64,000 nucleotides of DNA from Streptomyces sp. NBC_00425 (GCF_036030735.1 NZ_CP107928.1:9238001-9302000), one strand, 5' to 3'; positions 7,105-34,487 are shown, counted from the first letter of the stretch. The notes: a model not told the origin generated them from the letters alone. Numbers and translations: made by a program.

Positions 7105-7770
7105 CTACGCCCGCAGGGCCGCGAAAAGCAGGTCCCGGGAGTCGGACCAGCGCTGTACGAGATCAGCGCGACGGGTGAGCCGCGCGGAGATGTGCTGGGT
7201 GCCGAAGAACGCGGAGACCAGCGTGTGGGCCGCGGCGTCGGGCGAGACGCCCTCGCGCAGTTCCCCGGCCTCCGCCGCCTCCACCAGCAGCTCCGTCAGC
7301 AGGCTGATCCAGCCGATGTAGGGCTGCGGCAACAGGCCGTCCGGCAGGGGCTGTTCCATCTGCAGTCGCGCCCCGCCCTGCACGACCACGTCGTCCTGGA
7401 AGGCCTGGGCGGTCCGGTCGAGCAGTTCACCCACGGTGTCCAGCGGGCCGAGCCCCTTGGCCTGGGCCGCTTGCAGCAGTGCGGGCCAGCGGTGGTAGTG
7501 CGCCTCGACGACCGCGATCGTCAGCGCTTCCTTGGTGGGGTAGTGGAAGTACACCGCGCCCTTGGTCATCCCCACATGGTCGGCGACGTCCTTGACGGAC
7601 GTCTTGCCGTACCCGCGCTCGTCGAAGAGCTGCGCGGCGGCGTCCAGGATCTGCTTGCGGGTGTGCGCGGCCCGCTCCTGCTGCAGTTCAGGGCTGCGGC
7701 CGTGCAGGGCGATGCTGCCCGGGCTGCGCTCGGGTACCGGGAAGGTGGCCCGGTGCTTCTTCAGTTCCAC
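7105..7770 (-). CDS. Gamma-butyrolactone receptor-like TetR regulator (ArpA/ScbR family)
   Basis: The DNA-binding half contains TRKQILDAAAQLFDERGYGKTSVKDVADHVGMTKGAVYFHYPTKE in consecutive segments, the TetR helix-turn-helix. The ligand half includes PYIGWISLLTELL, with the tryptophan that lines the butyrolactone pocket in this family. It is divergent from an afsA homologue, and an ARE-type palindrome lies between them, so it probably represses both until the butyrolactone binds. I chose the GTG at 7770, preceded by GGAG at a good distance; the GTG at 7785 or a TTG at 7809 are alternatives, and the family usually begins closer to the helix-turn-helix. The N-terminal extension of about 35 residues is therefore odd. 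Confidence 0.88.
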   Translation of the reverse strand: MELKKHRATFPVPERSPGSIALHGRSPELQQERAAHTRKQILDAAAQLFDERGYGKTSVKDVADHVGMTKGAVYFHYPTKEALTIAVVEAHYHRWPALLQAAQAKGLGPLDTVGELLDRTAQAFQDDVVVQGGARLQMEQPLPDGLLPQPYIGWISLLTELLVEAAEAGELREGVSPDAAAHTLVSAFFGTQHISARLTRRADLVQRWSDSRDLLFAALRA

Positions 7771-7808
7771 GATGTCTCCGCTCACGGTCGCGTCCAACCC
7801 CCGTTGCA

Positions 7809-7830
7809 ATATACCTTCCCGCAGGTATAT
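7809..7830. promoter_or_regulatory. ARE-type gamma-butyrolactone receptor operator
   Basis: Arms ATATACCT and AGGTATAT are perfect complements around a six-base centre and are followed by a T-run. This matches the AT-rich palindromes bound by ArpA/ScbR-type receptors. It lies in the divergent promoter region of the receptor and synthase genes and stands out against the local GC content. Confidence 0.85.
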
Positions 7831-7909
7831 TTTTCACCGAACAGCCGGTGACCGACCACCACGCAAGGTCACGGCTGTGCGGTACAGCCGCTTCCGGAGG
7901 GGGAAATTC

Positions 7910-8896
7910 ATGTATGACACCGACATAGCGCCCGGCGACACGACCGCCAGGCACTGTGCCGATGTACATGTTCCGCGTGCTCTGGTCCACAAGAGCGCGG
8001 ACCGTGAGGTCCTGTTATCGACCGTGCGTCCACTGGGCGACGACCGCTTCGCGGTCCGACCGCGTTGGCCGCACGACCATCTGCTGCACCACTGCGCCGC
8101 CGACGGGACTCGGGACTCCCTGGTCGTCGTCGAGACCATGCGGCAGGCGGGGATCTACCTCTCGCACCGCTTCCACGATGTCCCGGCGGACCACGCGTTC
8201 GTCCTGCACGGCTTCGACTTCCGCCTCGACGCGCCGCTGCGCGACAGCGGCGACGGAGCCGACGTCGTGTTCGACGTCGTCCTGCGTCGCGTGCCCGGCA
8301 GCCCGCGCCGCTTCCGCCTGACGGCCGAGGCGGACCTCCTCGTCGGCGGCCGCCCGGCGGGCCACGCCAGCATGCGGTGGGACGCGCTGCCGCCCGCGCA
8401 GTACGCCCTCGTACGCAGCCGCAGCGCCGCCGTGGCAGCTCCCTTCGACGTCACCGACCTCACGGCAGAGGCCCGGATCCTGCCGCCGGCCGCGGTCGGC
8501 CGTGACCACGACGACGCCGTGCTGCTCGCGAGTCTGGGCGACGCGTCGGCCGGATGGCAGCTCAGAGAGGACACCGGGCATCCCGCCCTCTTCGACCACG
8601 GCAGTGACCACGTCCCGGGGATGGTGATCGTCGAGGGGTTCCGGCAGGCCGTCCTCGTCCGCGCCGCCGCGGACGCCGCGGACGCCCGGGCCCTCGGCTC
8701 GCTGCAGACGTCGTTCCTCGCGTTCGGCGAGCTCGGACAGCCCGTCACCATCACCGCGGAGCCCGAGAGCGCCGGCGCCTACCTGCTGGCCGCCCGCCAG
8801 GGAACGCGCACCCTGGCCACCGCACTCGCCACCATCGGCGCAGCCGCCGCCCCGCTGGACGGCCTCCTCGCCGGGGCCGGTGCTGTCGCGTGCTGA
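7910..8896 (+). CDS. AfsA-like gamma-butyrolactone biosynthesis protein, 328 aa
   Basis: AfsA enzymes condense a beta-keto acyl chain with dihydroxyacetone phosphate, the first committed step to A-factor-type signals. The protein has the two AfsA (hot-dog) repeats: the first holds VPRALVHKSADREVLLS and the second AILPPAAVGRDHDDAVLLA with PGMVIVEGFRQA. The start ATG follows GGAGGGGG. Codon 36 (8015-8017) is TTA, read only by the bldA tRNA, so translation should wait for development. Its stop overlaps the next start by seven bases, which suggests coupled expression with the flavoenzyme downstream. Confidence 0.92.
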   Translation: MYDTDIAPGDTTARHCADVHVPRALVHKSADREVLLSTVRPLGDDRFAVRPRWPHDHLLHHCAADGTRDSLVVVETMRQAGIYLSHRFHDVPADHAFVLHGFDFRLDAPLRDSGDGADVVFDVVLRRVPGSPRRFRLTAEADLLVGGRPAGHASMRWDALPPAQYALVRSRSAAVAAPFDVTDLTAEARILPPAAVGRDHDDAVLLASLGDASAGWQLREDTGHPALFDHGSDHVPGMVIVEGFRQAVLVRAAADAADARALGSLQTSFLAFGELGQPVTITAEPESAGAYLLAARQGTRTLATALATIGAAAAPLDGLLAGAGAVAC

Positions 8897-10005
8897 GTGA
8901 CCTGGGCAAGACACTGGACGTCGCCCGCGAGGACCGCCTCCTCCTCGACGAGACATGCCGGCTCACCGACCGGCTCGCTGACTCCCTTGCCGACAACGGA
9001 TTCGCCCGGCACTTCGTGCCCGAGCGCTGGAACGGCGGCGCCGGCACCTTCACCGCGCTCCTGGACGCGGTCTCCGAGCTCGCCGAGACCTGTGCGTCCA
9101 CCGCCTGGTGCGCCGCGCTGTACGCGGCCCACGGCAGGCTCGCCGGCTATCTGCCCGAAGCCGGGCAGCGGGAGATCTGGGGCGAGGGCCCCGACGTGCG
9201 CGTGGCCGCGTCCGTCGTCCCGCCCCAGGGCAGCGCCGTCCGCGCGGACGGCGGCTGGCGTCTGACGGGCAGGTGGGCCACGGCCAGCGGCGTCGACCAG
9301 GCCGAGTGGCTGCTGCTCGCCTCCTGGGTGACGCAGGACCGCGACCCGGCCGGCGAGACGCGGGAGCACCGGATCTTCGCCGTGCGGCGCCACGAGATGA
9401 AGGTGCTGCGCACCTGGCGCCCGGTGGGACTGCGCGGCACCGGCAGCAACACGGTGGAGGGCGACGTCCTGGTCCCCGACCACCTCACCTTCACGCTGGA
9501 AGACCTGGGGCGCGTCCGGCCGCACGCCGCCCGCTGTCATAGCGTGCCGTTCTCCCTGGTGGCGTCCCTCATCTTCGCCGCGCCGGTGCTCGGGGCCGCC
9601 GAAGGGGCGTTGCGCACCTGGTGGGAGACGCAGATCCGGCGCGTGCGCCCCGGCGGCGGCACCGCCGTCCAGCCCCTGGTGCTGGCCAGGGCGTCGGCGC
9701 ACATCCAGGCGGCGCGACTGCTCCTCGAGCGTGTCGCGCAGCGCGCCGACCACGCGCCCGTGACGCCCGTGCTCGTCGCCGAGAACCAGCGTGACGTCAC
9801 GGTGGCCGTGGAACTCTGCGGCGCGGCCGTCGACGAGCTCTTCCATGCGGCGGGGCTCCGCGCGCTGGAGGAGGACGACGCACTCCAGCGCCACTGGCGC
9901 GACATCACCGCGGCCCGCACCCACGGCACCCTCAACGTCGGTTCGGCGGCCTCCGGTTACGCCGACGCTCTGCTCGCCGCGCGCGTGGGGGAGGAGGCCC
10001 GATGA
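8890..10005 (+). CDS. Acyl-CoA dehydrogenase-like flavoprotein, 371 aa
   Basis: The protein has the three-part acyl-CoA dehydrogenase/flavin hydroxylase layout: an N-terminal helical domain, a beta domain (RADGGWRLTGRWATASGVDQAEWLLLA, GLRGTGSNTVEGDVLVPD) and a C-terminal helical bundle ending HGTLNVGSAASGYADALLA. The GLRGTGS motif and the length resemble HsaA/DszC-type flavin-dependent oxygenases more than fatty acid dehydrogenases, where a catalytic Glu would be expected. GTG start overlaps the afsA-like gene, so it may tailor the butyrolactone (as oxidoreductases do in other signalling loci) or the cluster product. Confidence 0.85.
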   Translation: MLSDLGKTLDVAREDRLLLDETCRLTDRLADSLADNGFARHFVPERWNGGAGTFTALLDAVSELAETCASTAWCAALYAAHGRLAGYLPEAGQREIWGEGPDVRVAASVVPPQGSAVRADGGWRLTGRWATASGVDQAEWLLLASWVTQDRDPAGETREHRIFAVRRHEMKVLRTWRPVGLRGTGSNTVEGDVLVPDHLTFTLEDLGRVRPHAARCHSVPFSLVASLIFAAPVLGAAEGALRTWWETQIRRVRPGGGTAVQPLVLARASAHIQAARLLLERVAQRADHAPVTPVLVAENQRDVTVAVELCGAAVDELFHAAGLRALEEDDALQRHWRDITAARTHGTLNVGSAASGYADALLAARVGEEAR

Positions 10006-10166
10006 CCCGCCGGACACCTCCGCGCATCGATGTGCCCGGTGGGCCCCGGGTGGCGGTCGGCGACGATCCGGTCCTCGCCCCGTCGTGCGTCGCGCGGGGC
10101 AGGCGCTCCCTCGGCATCCGAACCCGTCCGCGCTCCGGGCGGAGCGCGCTGCTGCACGTGAGCTGA
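10002..10166 (+). CDS. Possible 54-aa ORF coupled to the flavoprotein gene
   Basis: An ATG overlaps the preceding stop (ATGA) and opens a 54-codon frame beginning MTRRTPPRIDVPGGPRVAVG. The overlap is the kind used for coupling in this cluster. Against it, the peptide is Arg/Pro/Gly rich with no recognisable structure, so it could be chance. Treat it as unproven. Confidence 0.25.
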   Translation: MTRRTPPRIDVPGGPRVAVGDDPVLAPSCVARGRRSLGIRTRPRSGRSALLHVS

Positions 10167-10216: not shown

Positions 10217-10244
10217 AAACATACCTTTGGGAGGGTTTTTTGTT
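10217..10244. promoter_or_regulatory. ARE-like operator before the LuxR gene
   Basis: An AT-rich stretch in a GC-rich intergenic region reads AACATACC, then a GGGA centre, then GGGTTTTTTGTT. It resembles an imperfect ARE box, as found upstream of pathway regulators controlled by butyrolactone receptors. It lies about 80 bases before the regulator start. The right arm only partly matches the left, so binding needs testing. Confidence 0.6.
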
Positions 10245-10322: not shown

Positions 10323-11309
10323 ATGAGCGCACCGAGCATCGGGCCACAGGCCCTGAGACTCTTCCAGTACGCCTCGGCCCGCAGCGACTGGACCGTCCGC
10401 AGTGCCTGCGAGCAACTCGACACCACCGTCGACGAGATCGAGCACGCCCGCGGTCAGCTGATCGGCCTGGGCCTCCTCGTCGAGTCGCCCGACGGCGCAC
10501 CGGCGGCCAAGGCCACCGCTCCCGAGGCCGCGCTGCTGCGGCTGCTCACCGCCGAGGAGGAGGCCACCGCCCGCCTGGCCGACCGGATCCGTCGCACCCG
10601 CGAGCAGATCGACGCGATGCGCGAGGTGTTCCTGCCGCTGCACGTCGCCCGCAGCGGCACGCTCGGCGACGAAGTGATCACCGGCGCCGACCGGATCGCG
10701 CGCGTGCTCGGGGACACCGCCGACATCGCGACCTCGGAGATCCTCAGCATGCATCCGGGGCCCGTGCGGCCGTCGGAGGTGCTCGCCGAGGGACTGCGTC
10801 GCGACGTGCAGGTCCTGGAGCGCGGCGTGACCATGCGCTGCATCCACCTGCGGCCGATGACCCGCATCGTCCACTCGATGAACCATCTGCAGGAACTGCG
10901 CTCCGCGGGCGCCCAGGTCAGGATCGCCAACATCGTGCCGTTCCGCTTCATCCTCGTCGACCGGGTGCAGGCCCTGGTGCCCGCGCTCCACACCAACGCG
11001 GCCAACGCCATGATGGTGCTGCGCGGCGAGGCCGTCACCGCCCTGCTGGTCAAGGTCTTCGAGATGTGCTGGGCCTCCTCGGTGCCCCTGGACGACACCG
11101 GCGCCGGTGAGGAACCCGGGCTCACCTCCCAGCAGTTGTGCGTGCTGCGGCTGATGTCCACCGGACGCAAGGACGAATCCATCGCCCGCGAAATCGGCGT
11201 GTCCGTACGGACGTTGCGTCGCGTCATGGCCGACCTGATGGCGCAGCTCGGCGTGCAGAGCCGCTTCCAGGCGGGAGTCAGGGCAGCGCGGACGGGCCTT
11301 CTCGACTAG
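10323..11309 (+). CDS. LuxR-type transcriptional regulator with TrmB-like N terminus, 328 aa
   Basis: The N-terminal 60 residues form a winged-helix-like segment (QALRLFQYASARSDWTVRSACEQL). A long helix follows (AEEEATARLADRIRRTREQIDAMREV), then a ligand- or dimerisation domain. The C terminus is a clear LuxR helix-turn-helix (LTSQQLCVLRLMSTGRKDESIAREIGVSVRTLRRVMADL). Such proteins often act as pathway activators in Streptomyces clusters. The ATG at 10323 follows AGGAAGG. The ARE-like box upstream suggests that it sits directly below the butyrolactone receptor in the regulatory chain. Confidence 0.88.
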   Translation: MSAPSIGPQALRLFQYASARSDWTVRSACEQLDTTVDEIEHARGQLIGLGLLVESPDGAPAAKATAPEAALLRLLTAEEEATARLADRIRRTREQIDAMREVFLPLHVARSGTLGDEVITGADRIARVLGDTADIATSEILSMHPGPVRPSEVLAEGLRRDVQVLERGVTMRCIHLRPMTRIVHSMNHLQELRSAGAQVRIANIVPFRFILVDRVQALVPALHTNAANAMMVLRGEAVTALLVKVFEMCWASSVPLDDTGAGEEPGLTSQQLCVLRLMSTGRKDESIAREIGVSVRTLRRVMADLMAQLGVQSRFQAGVRAARTGLLD

Positions 11310-11665
11310 GGCGCGGGCAGGCGTCGCCCGGCGGACGGGACTGTCGAACACGCCCAGGCCGCGGGGCAGGGCCGCGGCGCGATCCGAACGACGGGCCCCC
11401 GGCAGGGAACGTGGTGGGGGCGGGCGCGCCGGCCCCGGGCAAGGGGCGCGCGACGGGCGCCGCTCGGCCGGCCACCGCCCGCCCCGTGGCCCGGCGCCGC
11501 TCACTTCCGTGCCGCACCGCGCCCGGCGTGCGGCTCCGCGCCCTGCCCGCGTCGCCCTGTCCGCTACCGGCCACGCCGCAGGGTGCCGCGCCTGCGCTCT
11601 GGCGGCCCGCCTTCGCCGCTCACACGATGGGGTTCCGGCACAACGTCCGTGAGTCAGGAGCCCTC
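11310..11665. other. GC-rich intergenic region without a supported gene
   Basis: The frame of the next gene is open through this stretch, but its translation is low-complexity Arg/Pro/Ala. I see no operator. It presumably carries the promoter of the enolase-family gene. Confidence 0.4.
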
Positions 11666-12691
11666 GTGTTCGACCCCGCACTCCTCCGGTCCCTCACGGG
11701 CACCCCGATGCAGGTCCGTTGCGCCGTCGTGCCCGCCAGGCTGTCCGCCGCCGGTGCCGTGCCGGGCGCGAGCGGGTGGGCCGTACTGCGGGTGACCGTG
11801 CGCAACGCGGGCAGCGTCGGACAGGGCGAGGCAGCCCTGCGGCCTTCCCTGGACGCACACGGACCGGACGTCCTGCGCGACCAGTTCGCCTCCGCCAGGG
11901 GCGGCCTGGAACGGATGATCAGCCCCCTCCAACTGCCCGGGCTGCTCGCGCCGGGCCCCCTGCGCAGCGCCCTCGACTCCGCCCTGTGGGACCTGCTCGC
12001 CAAGCGCAGCGGACAGCGCGCGTGGGAGCTGCTGGGCATGCCGCCGCCACGACCGGTGCCCGCCGTCCGCACGGTCTCCCCGGTGGCGACCGAACTGCTG
12101 GAGCGGGAGCTGAAGGACGGCGAGGACTTCGCCTCCCTCAGGCTCGAGCTCGGCGCGGGCGGTCTCGCCGACGACCTGGCCAGGCTGACGGCCGTACGCC
12201 GACTGCGGCCCGACGCGTGGCTGATGGTCGACGCCCGCGGGGCCTGGGACGCCGACCGGCTCCAGGTGATGCTGCCGATCCTCCACGCCCACGGCGTGCG
12301 CATGCTCGAACAGCCGCTGCCGCAGACCCGGTCCGCTGTTCTCGCCGCGCTGCCGCGCCCCTTCCCGATCATCGCCTCCCTGACCCACGAGCAGAGCACC
12401 GACCTGGGGCGTCTCGGGGAGCGCTATGACGGCGTCAACCTCTCGCTCGACGCCGTGGGCGGCCTGACGGCGGCCCTGGGCATCATGGAACAGGCCGGTC
12501 AACGGGGTCTTGCCGTGCTGCTCGACTCGCCCCCCGCGACCTCCCTCTCCTGCGCGCCCGTGCTGCACGCGGCGGCGGGCGCCGACCATGTCACCCTGCC
12601 GCGGTGGCTGGACGCCTCGGGAGCCGGTGCCCCGACACTGCAAGGGGAGGGCGGGATGCTGATCCCGCCCTCCCCTGCGCTGTGGGGGTAG
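11666..12691 (+). CDS. Enolase-superfamily protein lacking the usual catalytic lysines, 341 aa
   Basis: The fold is that of the mandelate racemase/muconate cycloisomerase/dipeptide epimerase group: an N-terminal capping domain, then barrel strands with LMVDARGAWD (metal-ligand Asp) and MLEQPLPQ (metal-ligand Glu). In that group the second strand carries KxK and a later strand carries KxDK; here the corresponding stretches read LRLELGAGG and VNLSLDAVGG with no lysine. The start is a GTG at 11666 preceded by AGGAG; the longer open frame is not protein-like. It either does different chemistry, such as a dehydration or decarboxylation, or has a non-catalytic role. A hairpin overlaps its last codons. 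Confidence 0.8.
   Translation: MFDPALLRSLTGTPMQVRCAVVPARLSAAGAVPGASGWAVLRVTVRNAGSVGQGEAALRPSLDAHGPDVLRDQFASARGGLERMISPLQLPGLLAPGPLRSALDSALWDLLAKRSGQRAWELLGMPPPRPVPAVRTVSPVATELLERELKDGEDFASLRLELGAGGLADDLARLTAVRRLRPDAWLMVDARGAWDADRLQVMLPILHAHGVRMLEQPLPQTRSAVLAALPRPFPIIASLTHEQSTDLGRLGERYDGVNLSLDAVGGLTAALGIMEQAGQRGLAVLLDSPPATSLSCAPVLHAAAGADHVTLPRWLDASGAGAPTLQGEGGMLIPPSPALWG
12643..12676. terminator. Bidirectional terminator overlapping the enolase-family 3' end
   Basis: A perfect 15-base stem (AGGGGAGGGCGGGAT with its complement) and four-base loop lie within the last 16 codons. The small minus-strand ORF at 12714-12788 would also end into it, so it may serve convergent transcription. Confidence 0.8.
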
Positions 12692-13067: not shown

Positions 13068-14249
13068 ATGTCAGTGAAAAAGGAATCACGCCGGGTCTCC
13101 ATTTTCGACACCACCCTCCGGGACGGCGAGCAGGCACCCGGAAACGCGATGACTCCACGTCAGAAACTCGAAATAGCACTGCGCATAGAGACGCTCGGCG
13201 CCGACTACATCGAATCGGGATTTCCGGCCTCCTCGCCCAGCGAGTTCCAGGCCACCCGGCTCATTTCCCGGAACCTGACCTCCGCGCGTTTCACCACGTT
13301 CTGCCGTGCCGTACGGTCCGATGTGGACACGGCCGTCGAGGCGGGCGGCGCCGACCGCCACCAGGTGCAGGTCATGGCCACCGGGAGCGACCTGCACCTC
13401 GCCCACAAACGGGGCATCAGCCGTGACCAGGCGGTCCACGAGGTCGCCGACACCGTCGCCCACGCCTACGCCCTCGGCGTCGAGGAGGTGTCCGTCGGCA
13501 TCGAGGACGCCAGCCGCGGCGAACTCGACCTGCTGCGCGCCATCACCCTGGGCGCCGTCGAGGCGGGGGCCGTGTGCTTCGCCGTCGCCGACACCTCCGG
13601 ATGCCACCTCCCCCAGGAGTACGGGGCGTTGATCACCGAGTTCCGCTCCTGGCTCCCGGACGGCGTCCGCGTCGCCACCCACTGCCACGACGACTTCGGG
13701 CTCTCCCTCGCCAACGCGGTCGCGGGCCTGACGGCCGGCGCCCACGAGGTGCAGGTCACGCTGGGCGGCATCGGCGAACGCGCGGGCAACACCCCGCTCG
13801 AGGAGGTGGCCGCGTTGCTGACCTACAAGGGCGCCCTGCTCGGTCTGCACACCGACATCGACGTGGCCGCCATGTACGAGGCCTACACCGCGCTGCGTGC
13901 GGCGATCGGACTGGAGGAACCCCGCAACAAGGCGATCTTCGGGACGTACGCCTTCGGGACGGCGGCCGGCATCCACCAGCAGGGCATGCTGCGCAACCCG
14001 GCGACGTACGAGTACGTGGAGCCGGCACGCTTCGGCCGTGAGCGCTCCCTGCTGATCGGACGGCACTCGGGCCGGGCCGTGCTGCGGCACATCCTCGACG
14101 AGCTGGAGATCGTCGTGAGCGAGGAGGACCTGGCGGGGCTCTACCGGACGCACATCGCCGAGCGCACCGGCGGCGACTGCGAGGACATCTCCGTCGTCAA
14201 GGCCCGCCTGGCCCGCGAACTGAAGACACGGCTGCCCGCTGCCGCCTGA
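13068..14249 (+). CDS. Homocitrate/isopropylmalate synthase-like DRE-TIM metallolyase, 393 aa
   Basis: These enzymes condense acetyl-CoA with a 2-oxo acid to a 2-substituted malate. The metal-binding signature DTTLRDGEQAPGNAM is at residues 14-28, and the second signature (THCHDDFGLSLANAVAGL) and GGIGERAGNTPLEEV follow. At 393 residues it lacks the C-terminal LeuA regulatory domain, so it resembles NifV/FrbC-type synthases and is probably not feedback-controlled by leucine. AGAGGA precedes the ATG. With LeuC/LeuD in the same cluster it would supply a chain-extension or alkylmalate unit; the 2-oxo acid used cannot be read from sequence. Confidence 0.9.
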   Translation: MSVKKESRRVSIFDTTLRDGEQAPGNAMTPRQKLEIALRIETLGADYIESGFPASSPSEFQATRLISRNLTSARFTTFCRAVRSDVDTAVEAGGADRHQVQVMATGSDLHLAHKRGISRDQAVHEVADTVAHAYALGVEEVSVGIEDASRGELDLLRAITLGAVEAGAVCFAVADTSGCHLPQEYGALITEFRSWLPDGVRVATHCHDDFGLSLANAVAGLTAGAHEVQVTLGGIGERAGNTPLEEVAALLTYKGALLGLHTDIDVAAMYEAYTALRAAIGLEEPRNKAIFGTYAFGTAAGIHQQGMLRNPATYEYVEPARFGRERSLLIGRHSGRAVLRHILDELEIVVSEEDLAGLYRTHIAERTGGDCEDISVVKARLARELKTRLPAAA

Positions 14250-17080: not shown

Positions 17081-17100
17081 GACCCCACCGTACGACAACG

Positions 17101-17124
17101 ACACTTCGCCCGGTGACGAAGTGT
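17101..17124. promoter_or_regulatory. Probable ArsR operator
   Basis: Perfect inverted repeat ACACTTCG / CGAAGTGT with an eight-base spacer. It lies in the 64-base gap between the ArsR start and the MFS start, so it covers both promoters. Confidence 0.8.
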
Positions 17125-17144
17125 CCGGCGTCGATGCTCGTGAC

Positions 17145-27317: not shown

Positions 27318-28453
27318 ACTCCCTGCAGTTCGAGCAGTGGCGCGTTCGGATCGGTGCCCGCGCCGGGACGGTTCACGTGGTCGTGCAGACGCTGCGTCAG
27401 ATGCAGCGCGTCCTCCTCGTCGGCCGCCAGCTGGGTCACCACCTGGCTGCCCCGCACCGCTGTCACCGGCACCCCCGCGTACTCGCCGGGCGTGAGCCCG
27501 TTGCGCCGCTGGAACTCCGGAAGGTCCACGAATCCCCCGGTGACCGCGACCAGCGGCCCCGCGGTCAGACGTACGACATCGATGTTGGCGCCGTGGAAAG
27601 CCGTGTACGCGCGGTCGGCGAGCTCCTCCGTCTCATAACGCAGAGCCGCCGAACGCTGGTTGAGCACCACCGCCGCCACCGAGGAACCCGCGCTGCCGAT
27701 GACCGAACCCGCCGGGAACGGCGGCCTGTTGTAACGGCAGACGATCTCGATCCGGTTGCGTTGCGCCAACCGCACCGCCCGCCGGTGCAGCACCTTCGCG
27801 CCGTACAACGACATCAGCGCCGCCGTGTTGTACGAGACCTCGCCCAGCAGCCGCGATCCGGTGATCAGATGCGGGTCGGAACTGTAGATGCCGTCCACGT
27901 CCGAGTGGATCTCGCAGCGCGGGGAACCGACCGCCGCCGCGACGGCCACCGCCGACAGGTCCGAACTGTTCTTGCCGAGCCAGGTCGGCCGGCCCTCCTT
28001 GTCGGCGGCCTGGCCGCCCGGCACCACCACCACGTCGTGCTCACGCACGGCCGAGCGCAGCGGCTCCGGATCGGTGTGCTCCAGGCGGGCCCACATGAAC
28101 GACGAGTCGGTGGTGAGCCCCAACTGGTGCCCCGCCAGCACCGTGGACGTACGACCCTCCCGGTGCAGGGCCGTCGCCAGCAACTGCGCGCCCACCGTGT
28201 CGGCCAGGGTCAGCAGACCCGCGACGGTCTCGTCCTCGGGATGCGGGTTCACCTTGCTCAGACGGTCCCGGAACTGCTCGGTCTCACCCGGCTGACCGCT
28301 CACCACGACCACCAGGCGGGTGTTCTCCTCCTCGACCCGCCGGGACAGCGCCTCGGCGAGTTGCCCGTACGCCGCCAGGGTCCGGAAACTGGAACCCCCG
28401 AACTTCACCACCGCCGGCGGCCGCTGCGAGGGGTCCAGCGACGGTCGCGTCAC
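27314..28453 (-). CDS. Aspartokinase-like amino acid kinase, 379 aa
   Basis: Aspartokinases phosphorylate the side-chain carboxylate of aspartate. Here the N-terminal AVVKFGGSSFRTL and EIHSDVDGIYSSDPHL are clear, but the usual TLGRGGSD is TWLGKNSSDLSA, and the C-terminal ACT part is short and divergent. That pattern suggests a changed substrate or loss of lysine/threonine feedback. Its GTG overlaps the stop of aspartate-semialdehyde dehydrogenase, and glutamate mutase lies in the same operon, so 3-methylaspartate is a likely substrate. A feedback-insensitive or resistant version of the primary enzyme is the alternative. Confidence 0.87.
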   Translation of the reverse strand: MTRPSLDPSQRPPAVVKFGGSSFRTLAAYGQLAEALSRRVEEENTRLVVVVSGQPGETEQFRDRLSKVNPHPEDETVAGLLTLADTVGAQLLATALHREGRTSTVLAGHQLGLTTDSSFMWARLEHTDPEPLRSAVREHDVVVVPGGQAADKEGRPTWLGKNSSDLSAVAVAAAVGSPRCEIHSDVDGIYSSDPHLITGSRLLGEVSYNTAALMSLYGAKVLHRRAVRLAQRNRIEIVCRYNRPPFPAGSVIGSAGSSVAAVVLNQRSAALRYETEELADRAYTAFHGANIDVVRLTAGPLVAVTGGFVDLPEFQRRNGLTPGEYAGVPVTAVRGSQVVTQLAADEEDALHLTQRLHDHVNRPGAGTDPNAPLLELQGV

Positions 28454-29493
28454 AGGGTCCCCCGGGCTATGAGCTCCTCGGCGATCTGGACAGCGTTCAG
28501 CGCCGCGCCGATGGTGAGGTTGTCGGCGACCAGCCACAGCCAGAAGGCGCGCGGGTTGTTCGGGTTCACCCGGACCCGGCCGACGTGCACCCGGTACGGG
28601 TCGTCGATCGTGGCGGGAGTGGGGAACTCGTGCGTCGAGCGGCGGTCGTGCACCGTCACCTCGGGCAGCGCGGCGAGCAACTCCACCAGCTCGGCCCGGT
28701 CGACGACACCTTGCGTCTCGATCCACACGGCCTCCGAGTGGCCGTTGACGACCGGCACCCGCACACACGTGGTGGTCACGTCCAGATGAGGCAGACCGAG
28801 GATCTTGCGGGACTCCTGGAGCATCTTCTGCTCCTCCAGCGTGAAGCCGGACTCCAGGAAACGGTCGATCTTGGGAATGACGTTGAAGGCGAGCGACGGC
28901 GAGAACTCCTTGCCGGGATACACCTCTTCGGGATGGTCCAGCGTCGCACGGCTGGCTTCCCTCAGCTCCTCGACACCGGGATGCCCGAGACCCGAAGCCG
29001 CCTGGTAGGTGCTGACCACGGCCTGGCGCACGCCGTAGCGCTGCTCGACGCCGTCCAGCAGCCGCACCAGCGGAATCGTCGAGCAGTTCGGATTGGCGAT
29101 CACGCCGGACTTCGGACGGGCGTCCAGCACATGGGCGTTGACCTGAGGCACCACCAGCGGGGTGTCCGGGTCCATGCGGAACGCGATCGTGTTGTCGATG
29201 ACGACGGCGCCGGCCGCGGTGGCCTTGGGCACCCAACTCTCACTGGCCTCGGTGCCGGCAGAGAAGAAGGCCAGGTCTACGCCGGCGAAGTCGAACTCCT
29301 CCACCGCGTGCACCGGGTAGGCCACGCCGTCCACGCTCAACTCCGTGCCGGCCGAGCGCGCCGACGCCACCAGTCGGATGTCGCGGTAGCGCAGACCCCG
29401 CTGTTCGATCAGCTCGATCAGGGTGTTGCCCACGGCGCCGGTGGCGCCGACGATCGCGATCCGCGGGGCGGCGGGGTCGGTCACGAGGGTCAT
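28450..29493 (-). CDS. Aspartate-semialdehyde dehydrogenase-like, 347 aa
   Basis: It reduces an aspartyl-4-phosphate to the semialdehyde with NADPH. The nucleotide fold is IAIVGATGAVGNTLIELIE, the catalytic Cys is in IANPNCSTIPLVRLL, and the substrate region VVNGHSEAVWIET holds the catalytic His. The length is typical. It overlaps both neighbours by four bases (ATGA with the exporter upstream, GTGA with the kinase downstream). In this operon it would make 3-methylaspartate semialdehyde. Confidence 0.94.
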   Translation of the reverse strand: MTLVTDPAAPRIAIVGATGAVGNTLIELIEQRGLRYRDIRLVASARSAGTELSVDGVAYPVHAVEEFDFAGVDLAFFSAGTEASESWVPKATAAGAVVIDNTIAFRMDPDTPLVVPQVNAHVLDARPKSGVIANPNCSTIPLVRLLDGVEQRYGVRQAVVSTYQAASGLGHPGVEELREASRATLDHPEEVYPGKEFSPSLAFNVIPKIDRFLESGFTLEEQKMLQESRKILGLPHLDVTTTCVRVPVVNGHSEAVWIETQGVVDRAELVELLAALPEVTVHDRRSTHEFPTPATIDDPYRVHVGRVRVNPNNPRAFWLWLVADNLTIGAALNAVQIAEELIARGTL

Positions 29494-30482
29494 CGGGTGC
29501 CTCCGGTCTTGATCTCGGTCTTGGACGCGGCCACCGCACCGGCGGCCGGTGCGGGCTCCGCGGCGGGCGCGACGGGCGCCCGGCGCCCGGCGAAGGACCA
29601 GCCGAGGTTGATGCCCAGGCTCGCCGCCACGATCAGGGGAATGCCCAGGGCCTGCAGCAGACTCACGCTGTGGCCGTACACCGCCCAGTCCATGAGCATC
29701 GCGACCGCCGGGTACACGAACGCCAGGACGGCGATCTTCGGGGTCGGCAGCTTCTGGTACGCGGAGTACATCAGGACGTACATCACGCAGGTGTGGATCA
29801 CCCCGAGGCCCACCAGCCAGCCCCAGTCGCCGCCGAGCCCCTTCATCTCGCTCAGCTGGGTGAACGGCAGCAGCAGGAAGATGCCCAGCACCAGCTGCAC
29901 CAGCGCGACCAGATGCGGCCGCACGCCGGTGACCCGCTTGGTGATGACCGTCGAGATCCCGTAGAACACCGCGGCCAGCAGTGCGTAGCCCAGACCCGTC
30001 AGATAGGCGCTGTCCCCACTGCCGGTCAGATCGGCCGCGGACACCCCCGCCACCAGGATCAGACCGACGAAGGCGACACCGAGCCAGCCGAACTTCGCCG
30101 CCGTGAGCTTGTCCCGGAAGAGCACGGCGCCCAGCAGCATCACGTAGAACGGCTGCGTGTGGTAAACGACGGTCGCCACGGAGATGGACGTGTCCTCGTA
30201 CGACTCGAAGAGGAACGCCCAGTTGAAGACGATGAAGACACCGCCCAGCGCGGCCAGGCCCAGCTTCTTCGGGGTGAAGTTGTGGTTCTTGAAGAAACCG
30301 CGCGCCAGGCAGTAGAGGCCCAGCGTGGCCGTGCCGAACAGGCAGCGGAAGAAGACCACGTTGAACGGCGACGCGCCGGACTCGATGACGAAGACGCCGA
30401 GGGTGCCGGAGAGCACCATGGCGAGGGTCAGCTCGATCGCTCCCTTCGTCTCCGTGTTCGCCGGCCGGGTGTCAGTACTCAT
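29490..30482 (-). CDS. EamA/RhtA-type exporter, 330 aa
   Basis: Ten hydrophobic segments in two repeated halves are evident, with GTLGVFVIESGASPFNVVFFRCLFG at the start and a long Ala/Pro-rich tail after helix 10. EamA transporters commonly export amino acids and metabolites. Its position between the solute-binding-like protein and the semialdehyde dehydrogenase, coupled by overlap, suggests that it exports the amino acid product. The gene has no resistance motif beyond this. Confidence 0.92.
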   Translation of the reverse strand: MSTDTRPANTETKGAIELTLAMVLSGTLGVFVIESGASPFNVVFFRCLFGTATLGLYCLARGFFKNHNFTPKKLGLAALGGVFIVFNWAFLFESYEDTSISVATVVYHTQPFYVMLLGAVLFRDKLTAAKFGWLGVAFVGLILVAGVSAADLTGSGDSAYLTGLGYALLAAVFYGISTVITKRVTGVRPHLVALVQLVLGIFLLLPFTQLSEMKGLGGDWGWLVGLGVIHTCVMYVLMYSAYQKLPTPKIAVLAFVYPAVAMLMDWAVYGHSVSLLQALGIPLIVAASLGINLGWSFAGRRAPVAPAAEPAPAAGAVAASKTEIKTGGTR

Positions 30483-30518: not shown

Positions 30519-31457
30519 TCAGTGGAGGGGGACGGCGTACTGCAGACCACCTCGCGTGAACAGTTCGTTGAGTCCTCGCGGCACGTCCAGACCCGTGGCC
30601 GGCCCGAGGTTGCGGTCGTACACGTCCGCGTAGGTGCCGACGGCGGCCAGGACCCGGGCCGCCCAGTCGTGGTCGAGGCCGACGGCCGGTCCGTGGGCGC
30701 CCGCCGCCTCCGCCGCCTGGGCCAGCGCCTTGTCCCGCTCGCCCACCTCGACGACGTGCTGCTCGGCGGAGACCAGCAGCTGCAGCACCCATCGGCACAG
30801 CCGGAACCAGGCCGGATCACCGTCGCGCACGGCGGCCGCCATCGGCTCGCGGGAGATCGCCTCGTCGAGGATCCGGTGCGCCGCCGGGGCGCCGAGCGCG
30901 GCCCGCTCCCCGGCCAGGGCGACCCGGTCCAGGACGTAGGCGGCGCACTCACCGGCCGCGTACGCCGCGAGCGTCTCGGCCGGCGTCGCATGGGCGACCG
31001 GCTCGACGGACAGGCCCCGACCGCCGTACCAGGCCGCAAGGTTGGCCGCGCTGGTCGTACCCGCCTGCACGGCCACCCGCCGCCCCGCCAGCTGCTCGGG
31101 CCGGGTCACGCCGCTGTCGGCGGGGACGAGGAAACCCTCGCCGTCGTAGCAGGTGACGCCGGTGAACAGCACGGGCAGGGACGCCTCGCGGCCCAGCGTC
31201 CAGCTCACGTTGGCGACGGTCAGCTCCGCATCGCCCCCGACCAGCCGCGTGAGCCGGTCCGCCGGGTCCGAGGGAACCCACTCGACCGCCTCACCGTCGC
31301 CCAGGGCGGCGGCGGCCACGGCCCGGGCGACGTCGGTGTCCAGCCCACGCCAGCGGCCGTCGTCACCGCGCAGCGACAACCCACGGATACCGCGGCTCAC
31401 CACGGCGCGCAGGGCCCCGTGCTGCCGCACCGCGTCGAGAGTGGGAGTGATGGTCAC
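30519..31457 (-). CDS. Leaderless periplasmic-binding-like protein, 312 aa
   Basis: The two-lobed amino acid binding fold is seen in GALRAVVSRGIRGLS, GLDTDVARAVAAAALGD, LTRLVGGDAELTVANVSWT, LAGRRVAVQAGTTSAANL and ECAAYVLDRVALAGE. In binding proteins this would follow a signal peptide; here the GTG start (good AGGAG site) opens directly on the domain, and no hydrophobic leader or lipobox exists. No ABC permease or ATPase is nearby. A cytosolic enzyme with this fold, such as a dehydratase of the cyclohexadienyl dehydratase type, is a reasonable reading. A ligand sensor is the alternative. Confidence 0.83.
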   Translation of the reverse strand: MTITPTLDAVRQHGALRAVVSRGIRGLSLRGDDGRWRGLDTDVARAVAAAALGDGEAVEWVPSDPADRLTRLVGGDAELTVANVSWTLGREASLPVLFTGVTCYDGEGFLVPADSGVTRPEQLAGRRVAVQAGTTSAANLAAWYGGRGLSVEPVAHATPAETLAAYAAGECAAYVLDRVALAGERAALGAPAAHRILDEAISREPMAAAVRDGDPAWFRLCRWVLQLLVSAEQHVVEVGERDKALAQAAEAAGAHGPAVGLDHDWAARVLAAVGTYADVYDRNLGPATGLDVPRGLNELFTRGGLQYAVPLH

Positions 31458-31588
31458 AGGACGCTCCTCGGTCGAGAACGGGCACGGCGGACGAGACTGT
31501 CGAGGGCACGGATGCGCGGACCGCGGACACGGCGCGGAGCCGGAGCGGGCAGCCGGGCGCGCAGGGCGTCATCGGGTCGGGGCGTCAC
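31454..31588 (-). CDS. Coupled 44-aa Arg-rich ORF
   Basis: GTG start with AAGGAG six bases upstream. The start overlaps the stop of the mutase large subunit (GTGA), and its own stop overlaps the start of the binding-like protein (GTGA). Both overlaps and the ribosome site argue that it is translated. The product begins MTPRPDDALRARLPAPAPRR and is about one third Arg/Pro. It contains no domain I recognise. It could be a small protein that binds one of the enzymes, or simply a ribosome relay between two genes. Confidence 0.6.
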   Translation of the reverse strand: MTPRPDDALRARLPAPAPRRVRGPRIRALDSLVRRARSRPRSVL

Positions 31589-32931
31589 GGCAGGCTCCTT
31601 CGCCTCTGGGGCGCCGCGTACTGCAGCCCGCGCAGATGACCCTGTGTCATCTGCTCCCGGTCGAAGCGCCGCTCGTTGAACCCGAGCATCGTCAGCAGGC
31701 CCCGCGCACTGACCGGCCGCCTGGAGGCGCCGCGTTCGACCCGCAGCGGCATCCGTCCCGGCTCCGCCCACTGCAGCATGCCCGCCGGATCGACGTAGGC
31801 CCGGGACTTGTTGGCGTTGTCCTGGTGGAGGCAGTACGGCACGTCCAGGTGACCGCGGCCGAAGGCCCGCACCAACGCCTCGCCGACCGTCGGCGCCATC
31901 TCCAGTGTGCTGTCCACCAGCAGCCGCGCCTCCTCGTAGATCCCCGAGTCGGTCGCCACGGCCCCCGGCGCACGCTCCGCCTCGTCCCGCGCGATGGAAG
32001 CCGCGAACTCCAGCGCGTCCACGTTCTCGGTGATCGTCGGGATGCGGTGCGCCTCGGCCGGCGTCTTCACGATCAGCCGCTCGCTGCCGGTGCGCACGGC
32101 GAGCCGCACACTCTCCTCGAGGATCCGGTACGAACCCACCGACGTGCGGGGGAAGACCCCCATGAAGGTGTAGAGCACGACATGCCAGTCGGCCCGCGCC
32201 AGCCGTTCGCCGGCCAGCCGGCGCAGCGCGGCGATCGCCTCCATGTCCTGCCCCGGATGCGTCTGCTGCGCATAACTCAACGAGATGTCGCTCAGGCCGT
32301 GCTCCCGGAAGAACAACGCCTCCAGCACACTGAGCGCCACCAGCAGGCTCGGAGGGCACAACTGCCCCAGCATGCAGCCGCCGAAGCTCTCCAGATGCAT
32401 CGGATCGGGCTGCGCCGCTATCAGTTCGCAGCATTGCGCCCAGGCCTTGACCGCCTCACTGATCGGCGCCCGGCTGTACGGCAGGCAGTACGACACCGGC
32501 CCGCCCTCGGTGGCGTCCACGCCGGCCTCGACCATCGCCCGGAACAGCGGGTACGGCAACGCCGAACCGTGGCGCACCTGAACCGGGAAGTCCGGCCCCG
32601 ACACCGAACCCAGTAACTCCCGGGTGGCTTCCGGGCCATGGGCGACCAACGGGAACCCGTTCAGCTCGGCTCCCGTGCGCAGCGCCTGACGGGCGGAGTC
32701 GTGGTCGTTGACCCGGGTGTAGCTGTCCAGGGTGATCGTGCCGATGGCCGTCGCGTGGGCGCCCCTGACGCCCATCAGCCCTTCGCGCATGGTGGCCAGG
32801 TCCGCGAACCCCATACGAGGCTGCACCACCAGCCGGCCGCGGGCATGCGCCCCTCGGACGTGACGCGAGAAGCGTCCTCGCGGAGGGATCTGGGGCACAT
32901 ACCGCTCGGGAATCCTCGCGAGACTGCTCAT
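31585..32931 (-). CDS. glmE: Methylaspartate (glutamate) mutase large subunit, 448 aa
   Basis: The TIM-barrel subunit of adenosylcobalamin-dependent glutamate mutase, which rearranges L-glutamate to (2S,3S)-3-methylaspartate. Characteristic stretches are RLVVQPRMGFADLATMREGL, EGGPVSYCLPYSRAPISEAV, ESFGGCMLGQLCPPSLLVA and SLSYAQQTHPGQDMEAIAAL. The ATG overlaps the stop of the small subunit (ATGA). The symbol follows the family name used for the E chain. The length is slightly short of the clostridial enzyme but complete for actinobacterial members. Confidence 0.93.
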   Translation of the reverse strand: MSSLARIPERYVPQIPPRGRFSRHVRGAHARGRLVVQPRMGFADLATMREGLMGVRGAHATAIGTITLDSYTRVNDHDSARQALRTGAELNGFPLVAHGPEATRELLGSVSGPDFPVQVRHGSALPYPLFRAMVEAGVDATEGGPVSYCLPYSRAPISEAVKAWAQCCELIAAQPDPMHLESFGGCMLGQLCPPSLLVALSVLEALFFREHGLSDISLSYAQQTHPGQDMEAIAALRRLAGERLARADWHVVLYTFMGVFPRTSVGSYRILEESVRLAVRTGSERLIVKTPAEAHRIPTITENVDALEFAASIARDEAERAPGAVATDSGIYEEARLLVDSTLEMAPTVGEALVRAFGRGHLDVPYCLHQDNANKSRAYVDPAGMLQWAEPGRMPLRVERGASRRPVSARGLLTMLGFNERRFDREQMTQGHLRGLQYAAPQRRRSLP

Positions 32932-33395
32932 GCGGCTGCCCTCGCGGGCTCCAGAGCGGGGCGCTCGGCACTGTCGAGTGATCCCAGGAAGTCCTGGAAG
33001 GCGTCGATCCCGCCGTCCGCCTCGAACACCGCGTCGAAGCCGCTGAGCGCCAACTCCTCGGCGAAGACGATGTTCTCCGCGCCCCGGACGCCGAGCTTCC
33101 CCCCGATCACCACACGCAGGTCCACCAGGTCCGGCTCGCTGCGGATACGGCGGATGAGCCGGAGGCCGTCGAGATGGCCGTGTCCGTTGACCGTGCTGAT
33201 GACGAGCGCGTCCGGCCGCGACCTGCGGCACTCCTCGATGATGAGGTCGTCGGGCACGCACGCGCCGAGATTGGTGACCTGCGCGCCCTGCTCCTCCAGC
33301 AGCAGCTGAAGGAAAACGAGATTCCACATATGGGCATCGGACGAAACGCTCGACACGACAAACCGTTTAGCCGGGAGCATGACCTGTGGGGACAT
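32928..33395 (-). CDS. glmS: Methylaspartate (glutamate) mutase small subunit, B12-binding, 155 aa
   Basis: It binds the cobalamin cofactor base-off through the His of SDAHMWNLVF. The family motif is DxHxxG; here the last Gly is Asn. The remaining B12 contacts (ALVISTVNGHGHLDGL and VVIGGKLGVRG) are present. AAGGAGAG precedes the ATG. It opens the operon that runs to the second oxygenase, so formation of 3-methylaspartate is the first committed step encoded. The 190 bases upstream contain the inverted arms TTATCGA/TCGATAA and separate it from a LysR gene. Confidence 0.93.
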   Translation of the reverse strand: MSPQVMLPAKRFVVSSVSSDAHMWNLVFLQLLLEEQGAQVTNLGACVPDDLIIEECRRSRPDALVISTVNGHGHLDGLRLIRRIRSEPDLVDLRVVIGGKLGVRGAENIVFAEELALSGFDAVFEADGGIDAFQDFLGSLDSAERPALEPARAAA

Positions 33396-33587
33396 AGGAA
33401 CTCTCCTTGCCGTATTACTGGGACTGCACAACATTCTTCAGGCGGCCCGAGAAGGAAGTCCAGAAATCCCATTCGGCTCTGCAGATGACCTTTATCGACT
33501 TCATCGATCGATAAAACCGATACGTTCATACGCACCATGCGGGCCGCTCATGAATTCCAGGCACTCCACCGTTTCCCGCGGATTCCG

Positions 33588-34487
33588 TCAGGACTCCTGG
33601 TACTCCCGGCTCAGGAAGTCGATGACCTGCTCCACGAACACCCGGCGCTCCCGCGACAGCTGCGCCCCCTTGCGCCAGGCCAGCTGGGTGAACAGCTCGA
33701 AGGGCGGCTCCCACGCCAGCGGCACCAGCGTCCCTGCCGAAAGCTCCTGACCGACAGTCATCCGCGGCAGCAGACTGATCCCGAGGCCGGCGCCGACACC
33801 GCGCTTGATGGCCTCGATGTTGCCGAACTCCAGGAAGGGCACCGGCTCGCCCGTGCCTTCGTTGAGTTCCGCCTCCAGCAGCTCCCGGTAGGCGCACCCC
33901 GCCTCCGGGGCCAGTACCGACTCCTGACGCAGTTCGTCGGTCTCCACCTTCGACGCTCCCGCGAGGCGATGCCCCGGCGCCGCCACCACGACGAGCGGCT
34001 CCACGCCGAGCACCTCGCTGTGCACCCCGGAGTGCTGCGTCTCGGCCTCCATCAGGAAGCCCGCGTCGAACAGTCCCTGTCGCAACGAGTGCAGCGTCTC
34101 CGCGCACAGGCTCGGTCGCAGCGCGATCTGCAGCCGGGGGTAGCGGTGGTGGAAGTACTCCAGCACCGGCGGCATCCGGTAGGAGGTGATGCTCTCCATC
34201 GTGCCGATGGTCAGCACACCCTCGGGCTGTGCGTCGGGGGACGCGGCGCCGCGTGCCTCGTCCGCCAGGGCCAGCATCTGTCCCGCGTAGGGCAGCAGCC
34301 GCGTCCCGGCCGGGGTCAGCTTCACCTTGCCCCCGAACCGCTCGAACAGCTCGCCCCCCAGGGACACTTCGAGGCTCTGGATCTGTGCGGTCACCGAGGA
34401 CTGTGCGTAGTTCAGCTCGGCCGCGGCCCGGGTGAAGCTCCCCAGCGCGGCCACGCGGTGAAAGGTTCGGAGTTGCCGGATGTCCAT
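33588..34487 (-). CDS. LysR-type regulator, 299 aa
   Basis: Helix-turn-helix IRQLRTFHRVAALGSFTRAAAELNYAQSSVTAQIQSLE, then effector domain (GVLTIGTMESITSYRMPPVL, GVGAGLGISLLPRM). It is read toward the mutase operon and lies immediately upstream on the same strand, so it is probably the operon's activator. The start ATG at 34487 has GGAGAG upstream. It marks the likely end of the cluster. Confidence 0.92.
   Translation of the reverse strand: MDIRQLRTFHRVAALGSFTRAAAELNYAQSSVTAQIQSLEVSLGGELFERFGGKVKLTPAGTRLLPYAGQMLALADEARGAASPDAQPEGVLTIGTMESITSYRMPPVLEYFHHRYPRLQIALRPSLCAETLHSLRQGLFDAGFLMEAETQHSGVHSEVLGVEPLVVVAAPGHRLAGASKVETDELRQESVLAPEAGCAYRELLEAELNEGTGEPVPFLEFGNIEAIKRGVGAGLGISLLPRMTVGQELSAGTLVPLAWEPPFELFTQLAWRKGAQLSRERRVFVEQVIDFLSREYQES

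Follow-up and report, generated by a model that had tools for sequence, protein, structure and literature searches.

Glutamate mutase supplies 3-methylaspartate building blocks in friulimicin- and vicenistatin-type systems, the canonical aspartate-nitrosuccinate pathway has a CreD-type lyase adjoining its N-hydroxylase, and leucine-type chain extension makes homologous amino acids such as homophenylalanine. Here we analyze a gene cluster of Streptomyces sp. NBC_00425 with relatives of all three, which runs from tetR (position 7105) to lysR2 (34487) of a 64,000-nucleotide stretch, the window (9,238,001-9,302,000 of the 9.8 Mb single-contig genome; guanine-cytosine content ~67-76% in 2-kb steps), and comprises 25 predicted genes modeled by codon-usage scoring and named with Pfam and NCBIfam profiles. 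It shares with the friulimicin/vicenistatin-type systems a GlmES pair predicted to provide 3-methylaspartate for secondary metabolism, but has no nonribosomal peptide synthetase (NRPS) or polyketide synthase (PKS); 3-methylaspartate would instead pass to a kinase, a semialdehyde dehydrogenase, an oxygenase and an exporter dedicated to it. Its nitrosuccinate synthase (NSS) homologue keeps the Arg residues by which the enzyme of the CreE/CreD, FzmM-type pathway holds its dicarboxylic amino acid, yet Asn413 is replaced by Ala and Val571 by Phe, a CreD-type lyase is missing and the neighbors are of LeuA/LeuCD type. Finally, a LeuA-like synthase, LeuC, LeuD and an aminotransferase are common to leucine-type chain extension, whereas LeuB is absent, the oxygenase TauD1 is found instead and an N-oxygenase relative lies alongside.

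We find that the region is composite, with a regulatory block (tetR-afsA-acdh-luxR1-MLE) and two biosynthetic modules, A (glmS-glmE-SBP-EamA-ASD-AK-tauD2) and B (nifV-luxR2-tauD1-arsR-MFS-AT-ICH-NSS-cupin-lysR1-leuD-leuC), and we assign this explanation as a whole, the proposed routes included, a probability of roughly one half. Gene identities, module boundaries, the separate occurrence of the modules, the retention of glutamate-binding residues and the altered pocket residues of NSS and the kinase AK are established by sequence and comparison. The 7.1-34.5 kb assembly is a real cluster and more than a chance collection, and its arrangement recurs in another strain: on a linear plasmid of NBC_01003 (NZ_CP108708), A, B and the butyrolactone block are arranged as in the window, with a few additional genes, among them two more TetR regulators and a HAD hydrolase, and the plasmid proteins are 58-91% identical to those of the window from lysR2 to luxR1. 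The genes listed by a first-pass annotation were all recovered in place by the gene models, Pfam and NCBIfam, and none of the 25 predicted genes (7105-34487) gave a profile match to an NRPS, PKS or peptide-ligase domain, as that annotation had also held. Further copies of the amino-acid genes sit elsewhere in the genome, namely another leuC (65% identity to the cluster LeuC), two other asd (46% each to the cluster enzyme), another ask (32% to AK) that adjoins one of the two asd, and a leuA-like homologue (30% to the cluster LeuA-like enzyme), so the cluster versions are extra and probably dedicated paralogues.

The modular architecture emerges most directly from comparison with related loci. 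In the window, B sits between tauD2 and the MLE gene; in four relatives (L002, L004, L007, L008) MLE-luxR1 directly follows tauD2 and in a fifth (L003) it follows after three predicted genes, and in all five a 227-aa gene, a HAD-IB hydrolase by its size and its position on NZ_CP108708, comes after MLE-luxR1 together with acdh and afsA. Whole-genome searches found no nifV at E<=1e-80 in 7/7 B-less relatives and recovered it in 2/2 B-bearing ones. Across 392 Streptomyces genomes, 20 carry the A kinase (E<=1e-60), 14 a nifV relative (E<=1e-110) and 5 both, leaving 15/20 A-kinase genomes without a nifV relative at that threshold, while B-type sets without A alongside are found in L104-L110 and L151 (L107 without nifV). 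In a FastTree phylogeny of the A core (39 rows, midpoint-rooted for display, L121/L022 and L122/L008 being identical pairs that probably each represent a single genome), the five A+B loci (window, its twin L114, L049, L005 and L006) group with a local support of 0.969 beside B-less loci. One insertion is the simplest account, and B was thus probably inserted once between A and the butyrolactone block, the alternative being its loss in two B-less lines.

The first-pass annotation had read the region as one linear pathway in which methylaspartate semialdehyde (or its oxo acid) would be chain-extended by NifV/LeuCD, hydroxylated and exported. Such a route fits the confinement to a single region and the order conserved in the window, its near-identical twin (L114/L115) and the NBC_01003 plasmid, but each module also occurs without the other alongside, and NifV-type synthases, as a matter of general knowledge, condense 2-oxo acids and not a 4-aldehyde. 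The entry of the semialdehyde into NifV/LeuA-LeuCD extension is not supported on these grounds, given also the A-kinase genomes without nifV and the NifV/LeuCD/aminotransferase sets without A alongside, and we regard the linear scheme as very unlikely. Because the region is modular, the one-pathway view was only partly right; a small, exported non-proteinogenic amino acid remains a likely product. Our reading is that A and B are probably co-regulated and would make separable, chemically related building blocks.

Module A and the adjoining regulator comprise the following genes:

26268..27308, minus strand: TauD2, Fe/2-oxoglutarate (Fe/2OG) oxygenase of the AsnO/clavaminate-synthase type (AsnO 2og5, 135 bits), with HxD..H ligands
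27314..28453, minus strand: aspartokinase-like kinase (AK), motif KNSSD, with a short C-terminal part resembling a single ACT-type domain
28450..29493, minus strand: aspartate-semialdehyde dehydrogenase type (ASD; TIGR01296, 366.4 bits vs. 324.2)
29490..30482, minus strand: EamA/DMT exporter (PF00892)
30519..31457, minus strand: SBP, amino-acid-binding-protein fold, no visible signal peptide (PF00497; 4z9n, 222 bits)
31585..32931, minus strand: glmE, glutamate mutase epsilon-type subunit, start corrected upstream, 448 aa (PF06368, 302 bits)
32928..33395, minus strand: glmS, B12-binding subunit, start corrected upstream from homologues, 155 aa (PF02310)
33588..34487, minus strand: LysR regulator lysR2 (PF03466/PF00126)

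The mutase-kinase-dehydrogenase operon proposed earlier stands in its 4-base overlaps (EamA/ASD, ASD/AK and glmS/glmE), while the glmS and glmE starts lie further upstream and a further gene, SBP, lies within it. GlmE retains R100, R149, E171 and Y177 in the alignment, and its R39 corresponds to R66 by ungapped offset only; the substrate-binding "arginine claw" of glutamate mutase is R66/R100/R149, accompanied by E171 and Y177 (PMC9545868). As GlmE keeps these glutamate-binding residues, conversion of glutamate to 3-methylaspartate and on to its semialdehyde, already favored in the first-pass annotation, is the best reading of glmES-AK-ASD. GlmE scores under the TIGR01503 cut-off (149 bits vs. 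390, with the short gene model). The small subunit of glutamate mutase carries a DxHxxG cobalamin motif, for which GlmS has SDAHMWNL, with D and H kept and G changed to N, as likewise in those of the relatives compared whose sequences reach the motif. AK has the AA_kinase domain and the aspartokinase fold and misses the NCBIfam asp_kinases cut-off (154.5 bits vs. 208.7), with KNSSD in place of RGGSD. KNSSD is present in 11/12 kinases of an alignment (A1) whose search pattern lacked that motif; over 44 locus relatives the counts are 35 KNSSD, 8 RNSSD and 1 other, and these are biased because the search pattern itself held GKNSSDL. Compared with Ask and Asd of lysine and threonine synthesis, homology indicates the same two reactions, whereas the window kinase differs in KNSSD for RGGSD, in its shorter C-terminal part and in its linkage to glutamate mutase. 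TauD2 has the fold family, the metal ligands and the Glu125 equivalent of the AsnO/VioC/clavaminate-synthase oxygenases (as aligned to AsnO) but differs from AsnO in all 33 TauD2 sequences at D241, the residue reading the Asn side-chain amide: this position is Ser in 27/33, the window protein included, and Ala in 6/33.

Beyond the window, 47 kinase loci were fetched from named genomes with the kinase as query and scored at self-chosen bit-score cut-offs. Six genes (glmS, glmE, SBP, ASD, AK and tauD2) occur together in 31/47 and all seven, EamA included, in 24/47; since the loci were found through the kinase, these co-occurrence counts are conditional on it. Cassette A hosts include Streptomyces, Streptacidiphilus (L016), Thermoactinospora (L032) and betaproteobacterial bins (L038, L039), with flanks that vary between locus groups; L039 has no EamA, and glmS in both bins and glmE in L038 score barely above the cut-offs. 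The L038 order, EamA-glmS-ASD-AK-glmE-tauD2 with glmE split over two frames, differs from that of the window, and the linkage of module A is therefore not merely one inherited gene order. Couchioplanes and Micromonospora (L037, L045) carry module A without tauD2. In Hyalangium versicolor (L035:9989-15364), ASD, AK and glmE are followed by a flavoprotein of the lysine/ornithine-oxygenase (N-hydroxylase) type and a class III aminotransferase, a coupling expected if methylaspartate semialdehyde forms, and this gene set suggests an N-hydroxylated beta-methyl-diaminobutyrate as its putative product. By analogy, beta-methyl-diaminobutyrate synthesis was considered for GlmE-AK-ASD of the window and rejected, as the window cluster has no class III aminotransferase.

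These comparisons also bear on a possible role of AK and ASD with ordinary aspartate as substrate, such as the supply of aspartate semialdehyde, methylaspartate then being used elsewhere. AK-ASD pairs without glmES exist (L028, L034, L041-L044, L047, L048, L052) and ASD passes the ordinary ASD model, both as such a role would predict; it is, however, at odds with the other ask that stands beside an asd in the genome, with KNSSD instead of RGGSD in the window kinase, and with the association of glmE with AK and ASD outside Streptomyces too (L035, L037, L038, L039, L045), and we consider it unlikely. Every assignment of substrate, step order and product, here and for module B, is predicted from homology and gene order. 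With a methylated substrate, GlmES would convert glutamate to 3-methylaspartate, AK would phosphorylate its side-chain carboxylate, and ASD would reduce the product to 3-methylaspartate 4-semialdehyde ("4-oxovaline"); TauD2 would hydroxylate the semialdehyde or the preceding acid, probably at C3, EamA would export the product, and a cytosolic SBP may handle the amino acid or serve as a dehydratase.

SBP (30519-31457) is itself unusual, a periplasmic-type protein apparently turned cytosolic, retained in cassette A of actinobacteria and of the two betaproteobacterial bins, and possibly an enzyme. A part in an ABC transporter was considered for it and dismissed, as neither the window protein nor related N-termini show a signal peptide by eye and neither an ABC permease nor an ATPase is present among the 25 predicted genes (7105-34487). 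Related kinases are also found in other settings. L113 (482-20000) combines AK-ASD-tauD2 with ATP-grasp ligases and a diaminobutyrate transaminase (names taken from L052) and holds a separate glmS-glmE-NSS set ~12 kb from AK-ASD-tauD2, resembling a peptide-type cluster. On a Rhizobium binae plasmid (L053:7003-9125), ASD and a related kinase annotated as uridylate kinase lie directly behind nifDKEN-fdxB, and the same ASD/uridylate kinase annotations appear on several other Rhizobium plasmids among the matches listed.

Module B is made up of:

13074..14249, plus strand: NifV/LeuA-like synthase with no regulatory domain detected (PF00682 + PF22617; closest structures are 2-isopropylmalate synthases)
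14359..15090, plus strand: LuxR-type regulator luxR2 (PF00196)
15125..16132, minus strand: TauD1, divergent Fe/2OG oxygenase (PF02668; best structure match E 4e-8)
16244..17080, minus strand: ArsR-type regulator (PF12840)
17061..18608, plus strand: EmrB-type MFS exporter (TIGR00711, 232.8 bits vs. 230.2)
18629..19810, minus strand: class I aminotransferase (AT) of the aspartate-aminotransferase type, below every NCBIfam cut-off shown
19807..20463, minus strand: ICH, isochorismatase-fold (amidohydrolase-like) hydrolase (PF00857; nearest structures are N-carbamoylsarcosine-amidase-related and biuret hydrolases)
20607..22490, plus strand: NSS, relative of L-aspartate N-hydroxylase/nitrosuccinate synthase, 627 aa (8cp2, 321 bits)
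22578..22988, plus strand: cupin (PF12973)
23035..23931, minus strand: LysR regulator lysR1 (PF03466/PF00126)
23928..24536, minus strand: LeuD-type small subunit (TIGR00171, 159.9 bits vs. 116.25)
24552..25952, minus strand: LeuC-type large subunit (TIGR00170, 644.7 bits vs. 560.25)

The NifV/LeuA-like synthase falls under both equivalog cut-offs (leuA_bact 308 vs. 599, nifV 271 vs. 463). TauD1 and TauD2 had been annotated alike as oxygenases of free amino acids, which suits TauD2 better; TauD1 is divergent and has no counterpart of AsnO Glu125, and its substrate may therefore be a hydroxy diacid. A LeuB-like gene was detected in none of ten tauD1-bearing B loci, namely the window, its near-identical twin (L114/L115), L049, L104, L105, L106, L107, L109, L110 and L151 (stretches of <=20 kb; 37 kb on the plasmid), and LeuB (PF00180) is present in three related nifV-leuCD loci (L154, L155, L156), from all three of which tauD1 is absent; the comparison left out L108 (tauD1 outside the stretch), L152 and L153 (contig ends) and L005 and L006 (stretches ending earlier). 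One could alternatively view LeuC, LeuD and the LeuA-like enzyme as resistant target copies protecting against a leucine-biosynthesis inhibitor made by the cluster: nitro analogues inhibit aconitase-type enzymes, and the genome's other LeuC shares 65% identity with that of the cluster. The LeuA-like enzyme, however, at only 30% to its nearest genomic homologue, is too distant for a simple resistant copy, and nifV-leuCD travel with AT and tauD1 even where the stretch has no NSS, so that we judge this highly improbable. The latter case is genome G386 (L151), where leuC-leuD-AT-tauD1-nifV occur without NSS in a 20-kb stretch; an NSS relative at E<=1e-100 was listed for 155 genomes, and G386 is not one of them.

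The most distinctive enzyme of module B is NSS, which the first-pass annotation recorded as a large flavoprotein, its N-oxygenase kinship going unrecognized: it is a homologue of the L-aspartate N-hydroxylase 8cp2, to which it aligns over residues 2-607 (321 bits). According to the 8cp2 study (PMC10404684), the chamber through which aspartate enters is lined by an Arg cluster and by Asn413, and hydroxylation is lost in the N413E variant but not in V571F. R13, R266, R276, R409, R412, R416 and R577 are all Arg in the window NSS, position 413 is Ala and 571 is Phe, and in nine of nine distinct B-type NSS loci position 413 is Ala, Gly or Trp. We also opened 30 NSS loci, the best of many matches in the 392 Streptomyces genomes, window and twin included (longer stretches of mostly the same genomes, L111-L113, L116-L119 and L123, were left out of this count). 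Twelve (L060, L062-L066, L068, L079-L083) encode an in-frame GlmE-NSS fusion with no stop between the domains, and in six more glmE lies directly beside NSS, five times in the same frame with one stop and once in another frame. Position 413 is Gly, Gln or Ser in the 12 fused enzymes; among the six glmE-adjacent ones it is Asn in three (L072, L074, L075) and Thr, Gln or Gly in the others. Beside GlmE/NSS pairs, 20-kb stretches show glmS, a cupin and a ~560-610-aa protein, which in L111, a nonfused pair, is an AMP-binding enzyme; cupin relatives lie near glmS or NSS in 5/7 glmE + NSS stretches of 16-20 kb (L111, L112, L116, L119 and L123, not L113 or L117). The fusions therefore tie the NSS enzyme family to 3-methylaspartate, and we read them as evidence that many NSS relatives may take 3-substituted aspartates. 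A canonical, nitrite-releasing CreE/CreD pathway was also considered for the window and set aside, with no lyase domain among its 25 predicted genes (7105-34487).

The same fusions raise the prospect of cross-talk, in which the 3-methylaspartate formed by GlmES of module A would reach AK/ASD as well as the NSS of module B, giving one product family (methylated nitrosuccinate or N-oxy derivatives) that needs both modules. GlmE and NSS are, after all, fused or neighboring in 18 of the 30 loci opened, both the fused and the B-type enzymes have a pocket changed at N413, a cupin accompanies both kinds of NSS, and A and B genomes overlap above expectation. Yet B-type NSS occurs in genomes without an A kinase at E<=1e-60 (G018, G170, G178, G256, G288), the residues at 413 differ (A/G/W in the B type vs. 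G/Q/S in the fused type), and the glmE-adjacent enzymes of L072, L074 and L075 retain Asn413, on balance leaving cross-talk unlikely.

In the modular reading that we prefer, B would build and N-oxidize a 3-substituted aspartate, as suggested by the kinship of NSS, the aspartate-type AT, the presence of tauD1 without LeuB and the missing E125 equivalent of TauD1. The NifV/LeuA-like synthase would add acetyl-CoA to a 2-oxo acid, LeuCD would isomerize the product to a 3-substituted malate, TauD1 would oxidize the latter in place of the LeuB step and AT would yield the 3-substituted aspartate, which NSS would then N-oxidize, with the cupin and the hydrolase finishing the product. Extrapolating further, into territory we hold to be doubtful, each module might yield its own family of 3-substituted aspartates along a distinct route: a B12 radical mutase leading to a reduced, hydroxylated and reactive "4-oxovaline" amino acid, and a LeuB-less, carboxylate-preserving extension through TauD1 leading to a bulkier aspartate N-oxygenated by a retuned nitrosuccinate synthase, with the GlmE-NSS fusions as a third and more direct route to N-oxidized 3-methylaspartate.

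Several observations weigh against the modular reading and its proposed chemistry. The modules co-occur unlinked: 3/8 B genomes carry A vs. 18/390 with window and twin excluded (5/10 B genomes with window and near twin included), counts in which A is the kinase match alone, B was defined after looking, the genomes are related, one of the three "A" (G257) is a remnant, G288 is included by its NSS, leuC and AT, and G053, G086, G143, G200 and G055, whose nifV relatives stand apart from any B set or are truncated at contig ends, are excluded. The overlap is suggestive only, and the two products may belong together. G288 itself has most of B but no nifV match at E<=1e-110. For module A, ASD and AK occur alone in 7/51 loci and with tauD2 in 2/51, all without glmES, so that the kinase subfamily is no proof of a methylated substrate; RNSSD, which keeps the Arg, is found in 8/44 kinase relatives; and AK-ASD-tauD2 of S. 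xanthii (L052) sits with a diaminobutyrate transaminase and ATP-grasp ligases. For module B, L154, one of the LeuB-bearing loci, carries another TauD-family gene, and the module may draw on the LeuB of the host. A prephenate dehydratase near B in L106 and, weakly (35 bits), in L108 suggests an aromatic 2-oxo acid (phenylpyruvate) there, a gene that the window cluster does not have; L109 has the same gene sizes and order as these loci. As for NSS, among the nine B-type loci position 276 is non-Arg in six, 577 is Gly in two and 416 is Cys in one. Plain aspartate may still be the substrate of the enzyme: 8cp2 stayed active with V571F, the change present in the window NSS, and for position 413 the change we note in that study is N413E (PMC10404684).

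A bestatin/homophenylalanine-type product was also entertained for B on account of that dehydratase; with no support among the papers listed and no prephenate dehydratase in the window cluster, it is kept only as a lead.

The remaining part of the cluster is the regulatory block:

7105..7785, minus strand: TetR-type regulator, likely gamma-butyrolactone receptor (PF00440/PF21935)
7808..7831, no strand: perfect palindrome AATATACCT-N6-AGGTATATT, autoregulatory element (ARE)-like, between tetR and afsA (inverted-repeat search; 0 expected in shuffles)
7910..8896, plus strand: AfsA/ScbA-type butyrolactone synthase (NF041195, 242.6 bits vs. a cut-off of 200)
8890..10005, plus strand: acyl-CoA-dehydrogenase-fold flavoprotein (acdh) adjoining afsA (PF08028)
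10323..11309, plus strand: LuxR-type regulator luxR1 (PF00196)
11627..12691, plus strand: enolase-superfamily (MLE-like) protein, possibly inactive (PF13378)

The butyrolactone control proposed at first pass is borne out by the ScbA-type gene and the conserved palindrome: a gamma-butyrolactone regulatory system in the cluster is supported by the ScbA-type gene, the TetR regulator, whose counterpart at the same position on NZ_CP108708 is annotated as ScbR family, and the putative palindromic operator between them. Ten related loci were scanned for the palindrome (L002, L004, L005, L006, L007, L008, L049, L114, L115, L137; L049 and L137 are separate stretches from a single plasmid, L114 and L115 from a single genome, that of the window's twin), and six (L002, L004, L007, L008, L115 and L137) carry close variants. 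It is absent from the L005, L006, L049 and L114 stretches, of which L005, L049 and L114 stop short of the tetR-afsA spot and L006 carries only distant afsA/tetR relatives; the L003 stretch ends at afsA. A one-mismatch core also lies before luxR1 (10221-10238), and because such looser core matches are near chance across the window (6 vs. 3.8 expected), only the tetR-afsA site is claimed as a putative operator. A fixed 11-base half-site consensus for butyrolactone-receptor operators gave nothing above shuffles.

In the MLE-like protein (11627-12691), the lysines of the catalytic KxK motif are seemingly lost, as read from the sequence; the gene is retained beside luxR1 in butyrolactone-bearing relatives despite this apparent loss. 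Outside the cluster, the window encodes a 656-aa protein with B12-binding and radical SAM domains (52945-54915).

Among the papers listed by searches of the open full-text literature, none describes a glmES-AK-ASD-TauD cassette, none a methylaspartate kinase or methylaspartate semialdehyde, and none connects glutamate mutase with nitrosuccinate, in line with the first-pass view that the gene set matches no known pathway; within this scope, neither module could be matched to a known product. The parts belong to known families, and their combination and modular history appear new to us. The main additions are a cassette A that is portable, the recognition of the flavoprotein as an N-oxygenase relative whose pocket is altered, the fusions of GlmE with NSS, and an extension set lacking LeuB. 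In actinobacteria, cassette A forms a compact, recurrent and self-contained unit that also appears in betaproteobacterial bins, and it is small enough to be expressed whole, so that its candidate exported amino-acid metabolite is directly testable. The LeuA/LeuCD set without LeuB predicts a leucine-type branch that would retain both carboxylates. The link between glutamate mutase and NSS, in turn, predicts 3-substituted aspartates as substrates for part of the N-oxygenase family; such substrates would broaden the known routes to N-O, and possibly to N-N, natural products.

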